DNA of 64,000 nt, from NCBI RefSeq assembly GCF_024496245.1, contig NZ_CP101740.1, positions 124,001-188,000 of the forward strand, written 5' to 3'. The position numbers were made by a program, and so were the translations under genes. The notes under the pieces were generated by a model, which made no database searches, had not been told where the DNA came from, and saw nothing but the letters and a program-made list of their open reading frames with translations. This stretch comes from Sphingomonas qomolangmaensis. Its GTDB lineage: Bacteria; Pseudomonadota; Alphaproteobacteria; Sphingomonadales; Sphingomonadaceae. Positions 1,365-58,214 of the stretch are shown here, piece by piece. Each line of letters opens with the position of its first letter. Positions within the stretch are counted from its first letter, which is position 1.

Positions 1365-2360
1365 GTGACCGGCACTACTTCTTCCCCCCTCCCGCTTGCG
1401 GGAGGGGCCGGGGGTGGGCCTGCGGACGCTGACTTCGGTAAACAGAAAGCCCCACCCCTAACCCCTCCCGCAAGCGGGAGGGGGACTGCGCGCGGTCGCT
1501 TAACCCCCGCCGCGCCGCTTGCGCCGCTCGTGTGGTTCAAGGCCGGCGGTGCCGCCGAATGGCTGTTCGAGCCTGCCGACACCGATGACCTTGCGGCCTT
1601 CCTCGCCGATCTCGACCCGGCGGTGCCGGTCATGGCGCTGGGCCTGGGATCGAACCTGATCGTGCGCGATGGCGGGGTGCCTGGTGTCGTCGTTCGGCTG
1701 GGCAAGCCATTCGCCAAGGTCGAGGCGATCGACGCGGTCACGCTTCGTTGCGGCGGCGGCGCGTCGGGCATTTTGGTGTCGTCGACCGCGCGCGATGCGG
1801 GGATTGGCGGCACCGAGTTTTTGCGGTCGATCCCCGGCACCGTCGGCGGCTTCGTGCGGATGAACGGCGGTGCCTATGGCCGCGAGGTGAAGGACGTGCT
1901 GGTCGCGTGCGACATCGTCCTGCGATCGGGCGAACGGCACACGCTGGACGTCGGCGACCTGGGCTACACCTATCGCCACAGCGATTTGCCCGAAGGCGCG
2001 GTGGTGGTGTCGGCGACTTTCCGCGGCCACCCCGCCGAACCCTCGGTGATCCAGGCCGAAATGGACCGGATCGCCGCCGCGCGCGAAGCATCGCAGCCGC
2101 TGCGGAGCAAGACTGGGGGGTCAACCTTCAAGAACCCGCCGGGCGAGAAGGCCTGGGCGCTGGTCGATGCGGCGGGCTGTCGCGGGCTGATGCGCGGTGG
2201 CGCGCAGGTGAGCGAGAAGCATACCAACTTCCTCATCAATACCGGTGACGCGACCAGCGCCGATATCGAGGCGCTGGGCGACGATGTCCGCGCGCGGGTG
2301 AAGGCGGCGTCGGGGATCGACCTCGAATGGGAAATTCAGCGAGTGGGGCGTAGCGCGTGA
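1365..2360 (+). CDS. murB: UDP-N-acetylenolpyruvoylglucosamine reductase with repeat-encoded N-terminus
   Basis: MurB is the FAD/NADPH enzyme that reduces UDP-GlcNAc-enolpyruvate to UDP-MurNAc. The FAD-binding GLGSNLIVRDGG, the SIPGTVGG segment and the GGSTFKNP motif with the proton-donating serine are all present. The start is a GTG preceded by GGTGGAG. The unusual part is residues 6 to about 40: they are encoded by a palindromic intergenic-type repeat, giving a Pro/Gly-rich segment not expected in MurB. The conserved enzyme begins only at LTPAAPLAPLVWFKAGG. No ATG, GTG or TTG lies between the repeat and that motif, so translation must run through the repeat unless the GTG of VWFK is used. 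It overlaps ddl by four bases. Confidence 0.95.
   Translation: MTGTTSSPLPLAGGAGGGPADADFGKQKAPPLTPPASGRGTARGRLTPAAPLAPLVWFKAGGAAEWLFEPADTDDLAAFLADLDPAVPVMALGLGSNLIVRDGGVPGVVVRLGKPFAKVEAIDAVTLRCGGGASGILVSSTARDAGIGGTEFLRSIPGTVGGFVRMNGGAYGREVKDVLVACDIVLRSGERHTLDVGDLGYTYRHSDLPEGAVVVSATFRGHPAEPSVIQAEMDRIAAAREASQPLRSKTGGSTFKNPPGEKAWALVDAAGCRGLMRGGAQVSEKHTNFLINTGDATSADIEALGDDVRARVKAASGIDLEWEIQRVGRSA
1381..1485 (+). repeat. Palindromic repeat, family B doublet, inside murB
   Basis: Two hairpins of the type CTCCCGCTTGCGGGAG lie in inverted orientation, separated by about 60 bases. The left one is followed by GGCCGGGGGTGGGC and the right one is preceded by GCCCCACCCCTAACC. The same arrangement recurs at 35053-35153, and similar ends flank the DUF559 gene at 21727-22180. 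Here the unit is translated in frame as part of MurB. Confidence 0.85.
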
Positions 2361-11254: not shown

Positions 11255-11323
11255 CGAGGGGCAGGGGTAGCAAAGCGCGCGCGGCGTGCAAATCCTCCCA
11301 GCGCCTCCGGCGAGGAATGGTAA

Positions 11324-21709: not shown

Positions 21710-21726
21710 TGTTAGGCGGTGCTTGC

Positions 21727-21759
21727 TCCCCTCCCTGAAAGGGAGGGGCCGGGGGTGGG
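21727..21759 (+). repeat. Left end of the DUF559-carrying palindromic unit (family B)
   Basis: The hairpin CCCCTCCCTGAAAGGGAGGGG is followed directly by CCGGGGGTGGG. The same tail (GGCCGGGGGTGGG) follows the left hairpin of the short doublet in murB. It lies 18 bases after the DUF885 stop. Confidence 0.8.
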
Positions 21760-21794
21760 TAGGCGAGCGCGGCTCGCCGTCCTACGCTGGCCTC

Positions 21795-22187
21795 ATGCGA
21801 CGTATTCCGCGATTGATGACCGCTCGCGCGCGCGACCTGCGCAATGCCGCCACCCCGGCAGAGCGCAAACTTTGGCGTCTGCTGTCGCCGTATCGACCGC
21901 GGTTCACTCGGCAGTTGGTAGTGGGCCCGTACATCGTTGATTTCGCGTGCCGCGAAGCAAGGCTTGCGATCGAACTCGACGGCAGCCAGCACCATGACGC
22001 GGCGGCCCGTGACGCTGCACGCACCGCATGGCTCGAATCGGCAGGCTGGCGGGTGGTGCGGCTTTGGAACAACGACGTCCTGACCGACCCCGAAGGCGCC
22101 GCGACGTTTGTCCTTGGCGTCGCCGCCGAGTGCCTCGGCGGCACCCACCCCCAGCCCCTCCCTTCCAGGGAGGGGAGGAAGGCGTAG
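21795..22187 (+). CDS. DUF559 endonuclease-domain protein (Vsr-like fold)
   Basis: A 130-residue protein of the DUF559 family, related to very-short-patch-repair endonucleases. The N-terminal ARDLRNAATPAERKLWRLL and FTRQLVVGPYIVDFAC, the catalytic-type IELDGSQHH, and WRVVRLWNNDVL are family signatures; the Asp and Glu of VDF and IELD are the expected metal ligands. Its physiological role is unknown. The last residues (THPQPLPSREGRKA) are encoded by the right-hand palindrome, so the gene and the repeats are physically one unit. The ATG is the first after the left repeat; a start at 21723 inside the repeat would give an unlikely N-terminus. Confidence 0.88.
   Translation: MRRIPRLMTARARDLRNAATPAERKLWRLLSPYRPRFTRQLVVGPYIVDFACREARLAIELDGSQHHDAAARDAARTAWLESAGWRVVRLWNNDVLTDPEGAATFVLGVAAECLGGTHPQPLPSREGRKA
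22143..22180 (+). repeat. Right end of the DUF559-carrying palindromic unit (family B)
   Basis: CACCCACCCCCAGCCCC leads into the hairpin CCCCTCCCTTCCAGGGAGGGG. It is the inverted counterpart of the left end and encodes the C-terminus of the DUF559 protein. The GGGGAGGAAGG at its edge may also serve as the ribosome site for uvrC. Confidence 0.8.
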
Positions 22188-27090: not shown

Positions 27091-28047
27091 ATGACGACCC
27101 GCGTGTTCCTCACCGTCGATACCGAGCTGATGTGGCGGCACCACGCCGCTGGGCTGCCGGTGGCCGAACAGATCGCGCGGTCGATCGAGCCCGCGGGGGT
27201 GGGGGTGGGCTATCAGCTGCGCATGCTCGCGGAACATGGACTCAAGGCGACGTTCTTCGTCGATCCGATGCCCGCGCGCACCTATGGGCTCGACGTCGTC
27301 AAGGCGATCGTCGCGCCGATCCTGGCGGCGGGGCAGGAGGTGCAGTTGCACCTCCACCCCAATTGGGCAGGCGCGGTGGCGGGCGATGGGGGGACGGCGC
27401 ATGCGCGCTTCGAGCTGGTCGATTATACGCTGGCCGAGCAGCGCGACCTGATCGCCGAGGCGGCGGCGCTGCTGGTGGCGGCGGGGGTGCCGCAGCCGGT
27501 GGCGTTTCGCAGCGGCAGCTATGCCGCCAATGACGATACGCTGGCGGCGCTCGCCGAATTGGGCTTCGGCTATGACAGCAGCCATAACGGGTCCGAGCAT
27601 CCGTGGCCGAGCGCGATCACGCTGCCGGTGCGGCAGATCGCGCCGGTGCGGCATCGCGACGTGATCGAATGCCCGGTGACATTGATCGAGGATGCGCCGG
27701 GGAAGCTTCGCCATTTCCAGATCTGCGCGCTGTCGGTGGCCGAGATGCGCGCGGCGCTCGACCATGCCGCGCGCGAGGATCATGCGGCGGTGACGATCGT
27801 CAGCCACGGCTTCGAGCTGGCGGCGCGGACGGGAACGCGCGCCAATCGCGTGCATATGCGGCGGTTCGAGGCGCTGTGCGCGATGCTGGCGGCACGGGCC
27901 GAGGCGATGCCGACGACGTGGTATGCCGAGGCTGGCGGGTTGCGGCTGGGGCAGGGCGATGCGCCGCTGGGGCCGAATGTGGTGCGGACGCGGTTGCGGC
28001 AGGCCGAGCAGCTTTGGTCGAACATGGTCGAGGAACGGGCGGCGTGA
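27091..28047 (+). CDS. Polysaccharide deacetylase family protein
   Basis: A 318-residue NodB-type carbohydrate esterase. The motif-1 aspartates appear as LTVDTELMW, the metal-binding histidines as EVQLHLHPNW, motif 3 as VAFRSGSYAAND, and the late histidine as TIVSHGFEL. No signal peptide is seen, so it probably acts in the cytoplasm. The substrate is unknown, perhaps a lipid-linked or nucleotide-linked sugar. The next gene, a CelD-type acetyltransferase, begins within a few bases of its stop, suggesting a two-gene unit for making or decorating a glycan. Confidence 0.85.
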   Translation: MTTRVFLTVDTELMWRHHAAGLPVAEQIARSIEPAGVGVGYQLRMLAEHGLKATFFVDPMPARTYGLDVVKAIVAPILAAGQEVQLHLHPNWAGAVAGDGGTAHARFELVDYTLAEQRDLIAEAAALLVAAGVPQPVAFRSGSYAANDDTLAALAELGFGYDSSHNGSEHPWPSAITLPVRQIAPVRHRDVIECPVTLIEDAPGKLRHFQICALSVAEMRAALDHAAREDHAAVTIVSHGFELAARTGTRANRVHMRRFEALCAMLAARAEAMPTTWYAEAGGLRLGQGDAPLGPNVVRTRLRQAEQLWSNMVEERAA

Positions 28048-28049
28048 GC

Positions 28050-28937
28050 ATGCCCAACGGGGCGGCGGGGGTGGTTGTCCGAGACCTGCCACTCAACTTC
28101 CGTGTTGGGGCGCGCACAGTATTCGCGTTCCCTCGCCGGCTGGTGCGGATCGCGGTGTCGCTTGCCGATGCGATCGAGGGGCGACCGCCCGCGCTGCCGC
28201 CGCTACCCGCGGATGCCGACGGCTATTCGATCCTCTCGCTGCCCGCGGGGTACCCGATCGTGCTGCCGGGGATGCTCGCCGCAGAACGCCAGCGTTACCC
28301 ACGCTACTTCGCCGACCTGGCGCTCGGGTGGGATGCCTATCACGCCGGGCTGTCGGGCAATCTGCGATCGGGGTTGAAGCGCAAGGCCAAGAAGCTGGCG
28401 GCGGCGTCGGGCGGGGCGATCGACATTCGCCGGTATCGGACGCCCGCCCAACTCGAAGCCTTTCAGGCGATCGCGCGGCCGCTGGCGGCGGAGACGTATC
28501 AGGAGAAATTGCTGGCGATGGGCCTGCCCGGGGACGCGGGGTTCGTCGCCGAGATGCTGCGGCTGGCGGCGGCGGATAGGGTGCGCGCGTGGCTGTTGTT
28601 CGTCGGTGGCGAGGCGGCGGCGTATCTCTATTGCCCGATCGATGGCGGCGACGTGCTGTACGAATATGTCGGCCATGCCGAGCGCTTCGACGCGCTGTCG
28701 CCCGGGAGCGTGTTGCAGGCCGAGGCGCTGCGCGATCTGATGGCCGAGGGCGGGCTGGCGCGGTTCGACTTCACCGAGGGCGAGGGGCAGCATAAGCGGC
28801 AATTCTCGACCGGGCATGTCGATTGCGCCGATTGGCTGGTGCTGCGCGCGACGCTGGCGAACCGGGTGGCGCTGGCGGCGTTGCGGGCGTTCGACGCGGG
28901 GGTGGCGCGGTTGAAGCTGGTGGTTTCTTCTCGCTGA
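28050..28937 (+). CDS. GNAT / CelD-like acetyltransferase
   Basis: A 295-residue protein of the FemAB-like or CelD-like N-acyltransferase group. It shows an N-terminal GYSILSLPAGYPIVLPGM part, the basic helix NLRSGLKRKAKKLAA, and the acceptor-fold motifs FDALSPGSVLQAEALRDL and FDFTEGEGQHKRQF, which are typical of CelD (Acetyltransf_6) proteins in polysaccharide loci. A GTG at 28044 overlapping the deacetylase stop is an alternative start. Being paired with a deacetylase, it may re-acylate the amine that enzyme exposes; this is inference. A repeat follows it. Confidence 0.78.
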   Translation: MPNGAAGVVVRDLPLNFRVGARTVFAFPRRLVRIAVSLADAIEGRPPALPPLPADADGYSILSLPAGYPIVLPGMLAAERQRYPRYFADLALGWDAYHAGLSGNLRSGLKRKAKKLAAASGGAIDIRRYRTPAQLEAFQAIARPLAAETYQEKLLAMGLPGDAGFVAEMLRLAAADRVRAWLLFVGGEAAAYLYCPIDGGDVLYEYVGHAERFDALSPGSVLQAEALRDLMAEGGLARFDFTEGEGQHKRQFSTGHVDCADWLVLRATLANRVALAALRAFDAGVARLKLVVSSR

Positions 28938-29874: not shown

Positions 29875-29902
29875 GGCATGGGCGAGGCCACAAGGGGGAG
29901 CC

Positions 29903-30949
29903 ATGCCGCAGTTGATCGCCATATTGCCCGGGGACGGGATCGGACCTGAAGTGACCGCCGAGGCACGGCGCGTGCTCGAGACGCTCGGCCTCGACCTGCG
30001 CTTCGAGGAAGCGCCGGTGGGCGGGGCGGCCTATGACGCGACGGGGCATCCGCTGCCGCCCGCGACGCTCGATCTCGCGCGGCGTGCCGATGCGGTGCTG
30101 TTCGGTGCGGTGGGCGATTCGCGCTATGACGGGCTGGCGCGTGCGCTTCGCCCCGAACAGGCGATCCTGGGCTTGCGCAAGGAATTGGGGCTGTTCGCCA
30201 ATCTGCGCCCCGCCAAATTGTTCGCCGGATTAGAGGACGCATCGGCGCTGCGCCCCGAGATCGCCGCGCGGATCGACCTGGTCATCGTGCGCGAGTTGAC
30301 CGGCGACGTCTATTTCGGGCTGAAGTCGCGCGGCACCACCGCCGAGGGCTTGCGCGAAGGCCGCGACCTGATGCGCTATGACGAGGCCGAAGTCGCACGG
30401 ATCGCGCGCGTCGGCTTCGAAACCGCGCGCACCCGTGGCGGGCGGCTATGCTCGGTCGACAAGGCCAATGTGCTCGAAACCTCGCAATTGTGGCGCGACG
30501 TGGTGATCGAGGTGTCGGTCGAGTATCCCGATGTCGCGCTCACGCATATGTATGTCGACAACGCCGCGATGCAGATGGTGCGCGATCCGGGGCAGTTCGA
30601 CGTGATCGTCACCGGCAATCTGTTCGGTGACATCCTGTCGGATCAGGCGAGCATGTGCGCGGGGTCGATCGGGATGCTGCCCTCGGCCGCGCTCGATGGG
30701 TCGGGCAAGGGGCTGTACGAGCCGATCCACGGCTCGGCTCCCGATATCGCGGGGCAGGGGCTGGCCAATCCCGCCGCGGCGATCCTGTCGGCGGCGATGC
30801 TGCTGCGGCATTCGCTAGGGATGGCCGAGCCAGCCGACCGGATCGAGGCGGCGGTGGCGGCGGCGATCGTCGGCGGCGCGCGGACGCGCGATCTTGGCGG
30901 CACGCTCTCGACCCGCGCGATGGCCGATGCGATCCTGACCCAGCTATGA
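29903..30949 (+). CDS. leuB: 3-isopropylmalate dehydrogenase
   Basis: LeuB oxidises and decarboxylates 3-isopropylmalate with NAD in leucine synthesis. The 348-residue product begins [18 protein letters not shown]. It has the substrate-binding [10 protein letters not shown] and [13 protein letters not shown], the catalytic [16 protein letters not shown] lysine region, metal-binding aspartates in VDNAAMQM and NLFGDILSD, and the NAD-binding [21 protein letters not shown] precedes the ATG. It lies apart from leuA/C/D in this window and overlaps the following glycosyltransferase by ATGA. Confidence 0.96.
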
Positions 30950-35052: not shown

Positions 35053-35153
35053 TCTCCCCTCCCGCTTGCGGGAGGGGGCGGGGGAGGGCCTGTCTTTCAG
35101 GCTCGCTTCACCGGACATGCCCTCCCCTAACCCCTCCCGCAAGCGGGAGGGGG
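35053..35153 (+). repeat. Palindromic repeat, family B doublet, before lysR
   Basis: CCCCTCCCGCTTGCGGGAGGGG is followed by CGGGGGAGGGCC. After 35 bases comes GCCCTCCCCTAACCCCTCCC and the second hairpin. The architecture is the same as in murB. The right hairpin ends GGGAGGGGGAATCG and so supplies the ribosome-binding site of the next gene. Confidence 0.85.
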
Positions 35154-56315: not shown

Positions 56316-58214
56316 ATGCCTGTCCGTATTTCGTTACTTTCGCTGGCCGTCGTGCTGGCGGCATCGCCCGCTTACGCCCGCGATATCCCCGAAACCCCCG
56401 ACGACACGATCGTCGTCACCGCCAACCGCAGCGAGCAGCCGCTCGACCGAGTCGGCCAGAGCATCAGCATCCTCGATGCCGAGGAAATCGAGATCCGCCA
56501 GACCCAAGCGGTCGCCGATCTGCTGCGGACGCTGCCCGGCGTCACCGTGACGCGCAACGGCGGGGTAGGGGCGGTGACGTCGGTGTCGATCCGCGGCGCG
56601 GATGGCGACCAGACCGTCGCGCTGATCGACGGGGTGAAGCTGAACGATCCGTCGTCGCCCGGCGGCGGTTTCAACTTCGGAAACCTGCTGGTCGGCAATA
56701 TCCAGCGGATCGAGGTGCTTCGCGGGCCGTCGTCGATCCTGTGGGGCAGCCAGGCGATCGGCGGCGTCGTCAACCTGCTGACCGCGCCGCCGACCGAGGC
56801 GCTGGCGGTGAACGCGCGCGCCGAAGCTGGGTGGCGCAATACCGGCCAGGCAGTCGCCAATATTTCGGGCAAGGCGGGGCCGCTTTCGGCGAGCGCGGGG
56901 GGCGGCTATTTCCGTAGCGACGGCATTTCGGCGTTCGGCGCCGGCAACGAGCGCGATGGTTATCGCAACTGGGGTGCGAACCTGAACCTCAACCTGGCGC
57001 TGACCGACGCGATTTCGTTCGACGCGCGCGGCTATTATTCGGACGGGCGGGTCGAGATCGACGGCTTCGCAGCCCCGAGCTTCGCGTTCGGCGATACCGA
57101 GGAGTACAGCACGACGCGCGAGTTCGTCGGCTATGCGGGGCTCAACGCCGCGCTGTTCGACGGGCGGTTCCGCAACCGGCTGGGCTTTGCCTATACCGAT
57201 TCGGATCGCGCCAGCTTCGACCCCGCCGAGACCTTCGCGGGCAAGGGCCGCAACGAGCGGCTGGAATATCAGGGCGTCGTCGATATCGTCGCGGGTAGCC
57301 AGGCGACCTTCGGGCTCGAGCGCGAGACCTCGCGCTTCACCTCGTCGAGCTATGGCGGCCCCGAGACGCGCGGGCGCGCGCAGATCGACAGCGTATATGG
57401 CCAGCTGGTGGCGACACCGATCGCCGGGCTGACGCTGACTGGCGGGCTGCGGCACGACGAGCATAACCGCTTCGGCGGCGCGACCACCGCGGCGGCGAGC
57501 GGGGTGTTCTCGCCCAATGACGGCGCTACGATCCTGCGCGCGAGCTATAGCGAGGGGTTCAAGGCGCCGTCGCTGTTCCAGCTGCAGAGCGAATATGGGA
57601 ATCAGGCGCTTCGGCCCGAACGCGCGCATGGCTGGGACGCCGGGCTGACACAGCGGCTGCTCGATGGCGCGATCGAGGCGATTGCGACCTATTTCCGGCG
57701 CGACAGCCAGGACCTGATCGTGTTCGTGTCGTGCCCCGCGCCGCTGAGCGGCATCTGCGCCGGACGGCCATCGGGCACCTACGACAATATCGCGGAGGCG
57801 ACGTCGAAGGGTGTCGAGGTGGCGCTGGCGCTGCAGCCAGTGCCCGCGCTGCGCATCCAGGGGAGCTACACGCATATCGACGCGCGCAACCGTTCGCCCG
57901 GCGATGCCAATTTCGACCGGCGATTGGCACGGCGGCCGAGCGACAGCGTGACGACGACGGTCGATTACAGCTGGCCGTTCGGGCTGCAGACGGGGGCGAC
58001 GCTGACGCATGTCGGCACCAGCTTCGACAATGCCAGCAACGCGCGGCGGATCGAGGGCTATGTGCTGGCCGAACTGCGCGCGGCGCTGCCGGTGACGCGC
58101 AATGTCGAGCTGTACGGGCGCGTCGAGAATCTGTTCGACGAGCGCTACGAAACGCTGTTCCGCTACGGCACGCCGGGGCGCGCTGCCTATGGCGGCGTTC
58201 GGGTGCGCTACTGA
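56316..58214 (+). CDS. btuB: TonB-dependent cobalamin receptor
   Basis: A 632-residue outer-membrane receptor for corrinoid uptake. The signal peptide ends AYARD near residue 22 and the TonB box is DDTIVVTA. The plug has ADLLRTLPGVTVTRNGGVGA, SIRGADGDQTVALIDGVKL and EVLRGPSSILWGSQAIGGVVNLLT. The barrel ends with the aromatic GGVRVRY typical of membrane insertion. The upstream riboswitch and downstream btuFCD support the cobalamin assignment. Its TGA overlaps the next ATG (TGATG). Confidence 0.94.
   Translation: MPVRISLLSLAVVLAASPAYARDIPETPDDTIVVTANRSEQPLDRVGQSISILDAEEIEIRQTQAVADLLRTLPGVTVTRNGGVGAVTSVSIRGADGDQTVALIDGVKLNDPSSPGGGFNFGNLLVGNIQRIEVLRGPSSILWGSQAIGGVVNLLTAPPTEALAVNARAEAGWRNTGQAVANISGKAGPLSASAGGGYFRSDGISAFGAGNERDGYRNWGANLNLNLALTDAISFDARGYYSDGRVEIDGFAAPSFAFGDTEEYSTTREFVGYAGLNAALFDGRFRNRLGFAYTDSDRASFDPAETFAGKGRNERLEYQGVVDIVAGSQATFGLERETSRFTSSSYGGPETRGRAQIDSVYGQLVATPIAGLTLTGGLRHDEHNRFGGATTAAASGVFSPNDGATILRASYSEGFKAPSLFQLQSEYGNQALRPERAHGWDAGLTQRLLDGAIEAIATYFRRDSQDLIVFVSCPAPLSGICAGRPSGTYDNIAEATSKGVEVALALQPVPALRIQGSYTHIDARNRSPGDANFDRRLARRPSDSVTTTVDYSWPFGLQTGATLTHVGTSFDNASNARRIEGYVLAELRAALPVTRNVELYGRVENLFDERYETLFRYGTPGRAAYGGVRVRY

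Follow-up and report, generated by a model that had tools for sequence, protein, structure and literature searches.

The DUF559 gene in the window, a 64,000-nucleotide stretch of the Sphingomonas qomolangmaensis genome, lies between two inverted palindromic ends that also occur as gene-free pairs. We conclude that DUF559 probably serves a REP-doublet system as its dedicated nuclease, in the manner of REPIN-RAYT but with an unrelated enzyme. DUF559 is widespread and its family name is still "unknown function". The matched pairing of enzyme and repeat gives a testable job to this protein and to its palindromes, dozens of which turn up in many of the genomes examined.

The whole element, comprised of a palindromic end, the DUF559 gene and a second palindromic end, occupies 21726..22177 on the + strand. 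Its homology with L004, a second copy in the same genome (79% identity over 473 bp), begins and ends a few bp from the outer hairpin edges, and the hairpin-to-hairpin distance is 427 bp in both copies. The left end is a perfect hairpin, CCCCTCCCT-GAA-AGGGAGGGG (21728..21748), of a type that we call A1, followed by the G-rich tail CCGGGGGTGGG (21749..21759, + strand). The gene (21795..22187, + strand; Pfam match to PF04480) encodes 130 aa plus a stop, and its coding end contains an inner hairpin, GCCGCCGAGTGCCTCGGCGGC (22122..22142), that is also found in the L004 copy. The right end opens with CCCACCCCCAG ahead of its hairpin; the right tail ACCCACCCCCAG (22143..22154, + strand), which is the left tail inverted and is coding, leads to the right hairpin CCCCTCCCT-TCC-AGGGAGGGG (22155..22175). 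Positions 22143-22175 are the left arrangement inverted, and the two ends align over 39 bp with a score of 30. The ORF reads through the right hairpin, which encodes the last residues of the protein (tail ...GTHPQPLPSREGRKA), to a stop at 22185-22187. The coordinates and the ORF confirm the description in an earlier sequence-only reading of a left hairpin with tail and a right lead with hairpin that encodes the last residues. A1 ends have a foot sequence CTCCCC.../...GGGGAG and then a CCGGGGGTGGG-like tail, and the tetranucleotide GTAG is absent. A CGTC tag beside an AT-starting stem is absent from both A1 ends and those of the sister type A2.

The window protein matches PF04480 with an E value of 2.9e-32 and 111 bits against a curated cut-off of 20.6. 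The folds closest to its AlphaFold2 model (pLDDT 88) are 3hrl, I-Bth0305I and Vsr, and the nearest characterised nuclease fold is that of the homing endonuclease I-Bth0305I. The protein has both the fold and the conserved acidic and His residues of EDxHD/Vsr-fold nucleases, and we take this nuclease to be of the PD-(D/E)XK kind. The gene is under purifying selection. We rejected an ordinary plasmid-borne element, as 43 of 72,556 plasmid records matched at E 1e-5 with the window protein itself as the query, and a known defence gene, as PADLOC yielded part-matches to long proteins only (best E 2.5e-7).

A profile search of the 3.43-Mb genome gave 11 matches to PF04480. All ten stand-alone DUF559 genes have matched inverted ends, with scores of 15-45, and the top score of 400 random 315-bp pseudo-genes from 260 kb of the same genome was 14. 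By the checks that the sequence-only reading had named, DUF559 genes lie between such ends beyond chance, and no stand-alone copy elsewhere in this genome lacks them. L011 was rejected as a stand-alone gene; it is a weak DUF559 match inside a 1,976-codon protein, has no ends, and scored 9 and 12 in two runs. The ends of the ten genes were sorted into about six hairpin types: A1 (CCCCTCCCT; three loci including the window gene), A2 (stems CCCCTCCCGC..GCGGGAGGGG; gene L001 at 741 kb), B (CCCTCTCCCC; two loci), C (CCTCCCC plus a second hairpin GGGACC..GGTGGAGGGG; two loci), E (CCTCCCCC plus GGTGGC..GACGGAGGGGG; L008) and F (CCCCTCCCCT). The ends of two DUF559 loci (L102 and L111) look like the CCCTCATCCG..CACCTTCTCCC palindromes of RIME and similar short mosaic repeats of rhizobia; no paper on RIME1 was found in the open-licence literature.

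Two short elements in the window had been read as having the same ends as the DUF559 gene. Both are gene-free dimers (1386..1483 and 35056..35152) with the same plan and with tails, GGGGGTGGG / GGGGGAGGG, like those of the window gene, but their stem is different (CCCCTCCCGC..GCGGGAGGGG), which places them in the sister family A2 with the DUF559 gene L001. The tails of L001 fit the element at 35056 best. The orthologous spacers of both in the close relative G010 contain another repeat family. Several intergenic spacers are unrelated in sequence between two relatives at about 94% identity: where one genome has a repeat-dimer family (pyrimidine, CGTC or CGTTCGTTTCGAGCGAAGTCGAGAAACG type), its counterpart has a different one or none at all; in comparisons of the window with L120-L123 these spacers are at 1295-1489, 11295-11319, 28039-28085, 29886-29903, 35053-35153 and 56328-56341.

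In agreement with the sequence-only reading, the ends of the gene-bearing element itself also occur in gene-free dimers; these are present by the dozen and have unrelated centres. The genome contains 84 A1 hairpins (CCCCTCCCTnnnAGGGAGGGG) and no match to a control pattern. Fourteen A1 dimers were found in the sequence examined, 12 of 121-126 bp and two of 103 bp, and their hairpins agree at 97% compared with 33% for the central 20 bp. Dimers in two other genomes also have unlike centres, with lengths of 102-108 bp in 16 of 17 pairs in G018 and 103-104 bp in five of five in G002. Thirteen of the 14 A1 dimers of this genome were located in G010, where every site has an A1-type dimer; one counterpart lacks a perfect hairpin, one is inverted and two have another centre. 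For the ten of these 13 with the same centre and orientation, hairpins changed at a rate of 0.024, tails at 0.018, inner arms at 0.039, the centre at 0.101 and flanks at 0.049. Dimer ends therefore change 4-5 times slower than centres, and this low rate in hairpins and tails indicates that the ends are held by selection or conversion. Eight pyrimidine palindromes (L003, L007, L040, L066, L121, L135, L231 and L295) contain an inserted 62-bp double-hairpin element with a core like GGTCGGTCATGCCCCCGGCATGACC and outer arms that are variable and complementary. In L003 and L007, this insert reads as replacing four stem bases at the same point. The 62-bp insert appears to be a nested element whose targets are REP stems.

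The DUF559 gene and its ends form one unit and vary together. Among 225 locus pairs with no flanking homology (450 directed comparisons), homology past the gene ended a median of 1 bp from the outer hairpin edge on the left (n = 88; 77% within 10 bp) and 1.5 bp on the right (n = 146; 81% within 10 bp), with an overrun of more than 15 bp in 9 of the 450. Protein similarity correlated with end similarity across 83 loci from 38 genomes (rho 0.52). With same-site pairs removed, rho was 0.50 compared with a null maximum of 0.11, or with a null mean of 0.14 and maximum of 0.28 when shuffling was confined to single genomes so as to preserve genome-wide composition. For each of the 83 loci we also took the most similar protein encoded at a different site of a different genome; its ends ranked in the top tenth of similarity in 66% of cases and did not in about a third. 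Comparison with G010 revealed four sites with the same DUF559 gene (88-97% protein identity) and three sites where flanks 93-97% identical enclose different DUF559 proteins (48-52%) with different ends. In these same-site swaps the spacer outside the ends is partly different too. The window site in G010 contains a gene-free dimer of another family, and the L006 site had no recognisable ortholog among the G010 stretches compared. Whole elements, with or without a gene, are also inverted in place between relatives (L080 versus L067, L075, L083, L084 and L085; L308:9668-9789 versus L300), as would be expected because recombination between inverted ends would give such inversions.

The sequence-only reading had further suggested that the nuclease mobilises the element; from the sites compared, such mobility stays putative. 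All 13 comparable dimers of the window gene's own family have an A1-type dimer in the close relative, and we saw no clean gain or insertion with a target duplication at orthologous sites or shared dimers. One site (L075) has a type C element in five relatives, an inverted one in a sixth, and none in this genome. Here, homology on the left reaches a point 2 bp within the outer edge of the left hairpin, with a 2 bp microhomology; it returns 18 bp beyond the right hairpin, and we read the empty site as a loss of the element. RAYT-driven repeats were rejected on the basis that PF01797 (Y1 transposase, RAYT family) has no match in the genome.

Based on these results, we propose that the DUF559 gene with its two inverted palindromic ends is the gene-bearing, or master, member of a REP-doublet family. 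In this model, the Vsr-fold/EDxHD-type endonuclease would recognise its own class of pyrimidine/purine hairpin ends and act in trans on copies that carry them, and would thereby spread and maintain the gene-free dimers. The protein may cut the hairpin ends in ssDNA, cruciform or duplex form, and such a cut would cause the element to be copied, either through transposition or through repair-driven conversion.

A different proposal is that the system operates by homing and conversion rather than transposition. Cuts at or near the hairpin ends would be repaired from other copies, homogenising the ends and copying the gene into existing dimers, with the palindromes as homing targets. Several observations are consistent with this: the closest characterised fold is that of a homing endonuclease, the hairpins are near-identical between copies with unrelated centres, the ends change more slowly than the centres, and gene and ends are swapped together at the same site. 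In addition, an experimental evolution study of L. pneumophila reports segments with DUF559 and GIY-YIG flanks as potential recombination hotspots, unconfirmed according to its authors (PMC12308824). The DUF559 segments described there also contain a transposase, and such hotspots at GIY-YIG flanks and transposase/DUF559 segments would fit nuclease-driven conversion (PMC12308824). On the other hand, copies at unrelated sites have sharp outer edges, which conversion alone does not give, and the spacer beyond the ends partly differs in the same-site swaps. Among the sites compared we saw same-site swaps and one loss, and no homing event. We think it unlikely that homing and conversion account for the system.

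The dedicated-nuclease model is also consistent with where the hairpins are abundant. Hairpins of four types are commoner where DUF559 genes are present, and for three of these types the genes in question are cognate ones. We assigned gene types by visual inspection of the ends, with variants counted in (L074 and L038 as F; L077 not as C), when some of the counts were already known, and the p values treat genomes as independent, which relatives are not: A1 hairpins number 84, 140, 29, 12 and 4 in the five genomes of the genus with an A1-type gene versus 194, 13, 3, 1 and ten zeros in fourteen without (p = 0.003), F hairpins 41, 27, 47, 18, 14 and 2 with an F gene versus 18, 3, five ones and six zeros without (p = 0.0008), type C hairpins 10-88 in 12 genomes with a C gene versus 0-6 in seven without (p = 2e-4), and type B hairpins a median of 11.5 (0 to 83) in 22 genomes with any stand-alone DUF559 gene versus seven zeros, 1 and 2 in nine without (p = 1e-4) and, outside the genus, 1, 10, 15 and 43 with a stand-alone DUF559 gene versus 0-2 in eight genomes (p = 0.005). 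Type B palindromes are thus nearly absent from nine relatives without a stand-alone DUF559 gene, contrary to the equal abundance that would have counted against the sequence-only reading. The main exception is G018, with 194 A1 hairpins and no A1 gene found. According to PMC3686654, REPs without their RAYT enzyme are quite frequent.

This exception, and the fact that short dimers far outnumber genes, could be taken to mean that the doublets are moved by another host or mobile enzyme and that DUF559 genes are cargo caught between the ends. Chance capture would not be expected to yield a single protein family as cargo in several phyla with co-varying ends, nor the near absence of type B ends where stand-alone DUF559 genes are absent, and PF01797 is unmatched in the genome. 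We therefore regard passive cargo as improbable. It is still harder to see the hairpins as expression signals of the gene, for instance as terminators, mRNA guards or autoregulatory sites. Their position close on either side of the gene, and the coding right hairpin of the window copy, speak for this; against it, dozens of such pairs enclose no gene, the two hairpins are inverted copies of each other, unlike terminators, and they bound the homology at unrelated sites. We give this idea very little credence.

The association between DUF559 genes and such palindromic ends extends across several phyla. Matched terminal inverted repeats with a score of at least 15 flank 144 of 178 stand-alone DUF559 loci and 0 of 778 controls, namely RuvX genes from class genomes (none of 29 passed, whichever criterion was used), positions displaced by 850-900 bp (0 of 204 and 0 of 145, together 0 of 349) and random pseudo-genes (0 of 400). 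Under the other criterion, which asks for a pyrimidine-rich hairpin of 7 bp or longer, 123 of the 178 loci have hairpins on both sides, 38 on one side and 17 on neither; at shifted positions, 0 of 343 have them on both sides and 14 on one. In the RuvX set, L161 (41 bp of downstream flank) was left out of the score run and L162 out of the hairpin run. The 178 are the loci that remain after removal of duplicates (L215 and L267, the same loci as L097 and L107), long or unlike proteins that are not stand-alone (L011, L046, L091), loci with a short flank (L041, L220) or an N run (L227), and relatives' PF04480 matches in frames of about 1,975-2,065 codons. At the order level, 23 of 31 genomes have PF04480 matches and 65 of 77 loci score at least 15 (78 taken, one with too little flank); three of those that fall short are long or unlike proteins. 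At the class level, 43 of 115 genomes (mostly one per family) have a match, and 18 of 28 loci score at least 15, these being the best locus of each of 28 of the 43 matching genomes, with G000 and G010 not among the 28. A scan of a species-genome collection gave 63 of 78 usable loci at this score, from 80 loci (L227 uncounted) that are the best 80 of at least 565 relatives and include many metagenome bins in which wrong binning is possible; record titles include Chloroflexi, Gastranaerophilales, WOR-3, Marinimicrobia, Clostridia, and beta-, gamma- and delta-proteobacteria. The end pairs are of the pyrimidine/purine type in 139 of the 144. The notion that any small gene in palindrome-rich intergenic space would have such ends can be dismissed, for although a 324 kb sample including the window contains 23 pyrimidine-arm hairpins (arm of at least 9 bp), the RuvX, shifted and random controls rule out chance flanking and the inverted ends of stand-alone GIY-YIG genes differ in class, with 0 of 12 of the pyrimidine type.

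Stand-alone GIY-YIG nuclease genes show a pattern of their own. From 30 loci we left out three UvrC; flanks were usable in 26 of the remaining 27, and 12 of these 26 have inverted ends with a score of at least 15 (L170, L171, L173-L177, L179, L180, L185, L186 and L190, where L170 and L171 represent a single gene from two relatives). These ends are mostly CGTC-tagged palindromes (e.g. TGTCATTGCGAGCGTAGCGAAGCAATCCATC) or CCTGAGCTTGTCGAAGG palindromes. GIY-YIG-related spacers occur in G010 at L121:7942-8360 and L139:3732-4005; the gene is whole in the latter and truncated in this genome (L018:16159-16242), where the 272 bp that are missing end beside a CGTC-type palindrome. We consider GIY-YIG a parallel pairing and a candidate partner of CGTC REPs. 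It is possible, and we offer it tentatively, that REP doublets fall into a number of superfamilies, with a small nuclease dedicated to each: the known GTAG/RAYT, pyrimidine/purine with DUF559, and CGTC plus TCGAAGG with stand-alone GIY-YIG. The last two enzyme types are of homing type, so that a large part of the REPs in Alphaproteobacteria and other phyla might be spread and homogenised by a cut-and-repair drive and not by a transposase.

Comparison with RAYT and REPINs, which the sequence-only reading had drawn, proved apt, with an enzyme gene between inverted cognate ends and gene-free dimers in a genome where the RAYT family is unmatched. As in REPIN/RAYT systems, the enzyme gene is flanked by inverted cognate REPs (144 of 178 DUF559 loci, with co-variation in 83), is often at conserved sites, and is accompanied by many gene-free inverted dimers with conserved ends and a variable spacer; REPINs have a variable centre. 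Also as for RAYT, REPs occur without their enzyme (PMC3686654). In contrast to RAYT, the DUF559 enzyme is a Vsr-fold nuclease and not an HUH/Y1 transposase, and its ends have no GTAG tag, with either a G-rich tail or another hairpin next after the first hairpin. Unlike I-Bth0305I, EDxHD homing endonucleases and Vsr, the window gene stands alone between its own palindromes, which have many gene-free copies. Among the matches listed from the open-licence literature, we found no paper linking DUF559 to REPs. CGTC-tagged REPs are described in PMC3733652 as common in Alphaproteobacteria, arranged in head-to-head dimers and without a dedicated transposase. DUF559 ends are likewise common in Alphaproteobacteria and form head-to-head dimers but are mostly of the pyrimidine/purine type, whereas CGTC-type palindromes flank some GIY-YIG genes; type E ends (L008) do contain CCGTCATGC-loop-GCATGCCACC. 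The pairing bears on a question left by PMC3733652, that of the enzymes acting on REPs that lack a RAYT. If our model is correct, REP-type repeats would be paired with at least two unrelated nuclease folds.
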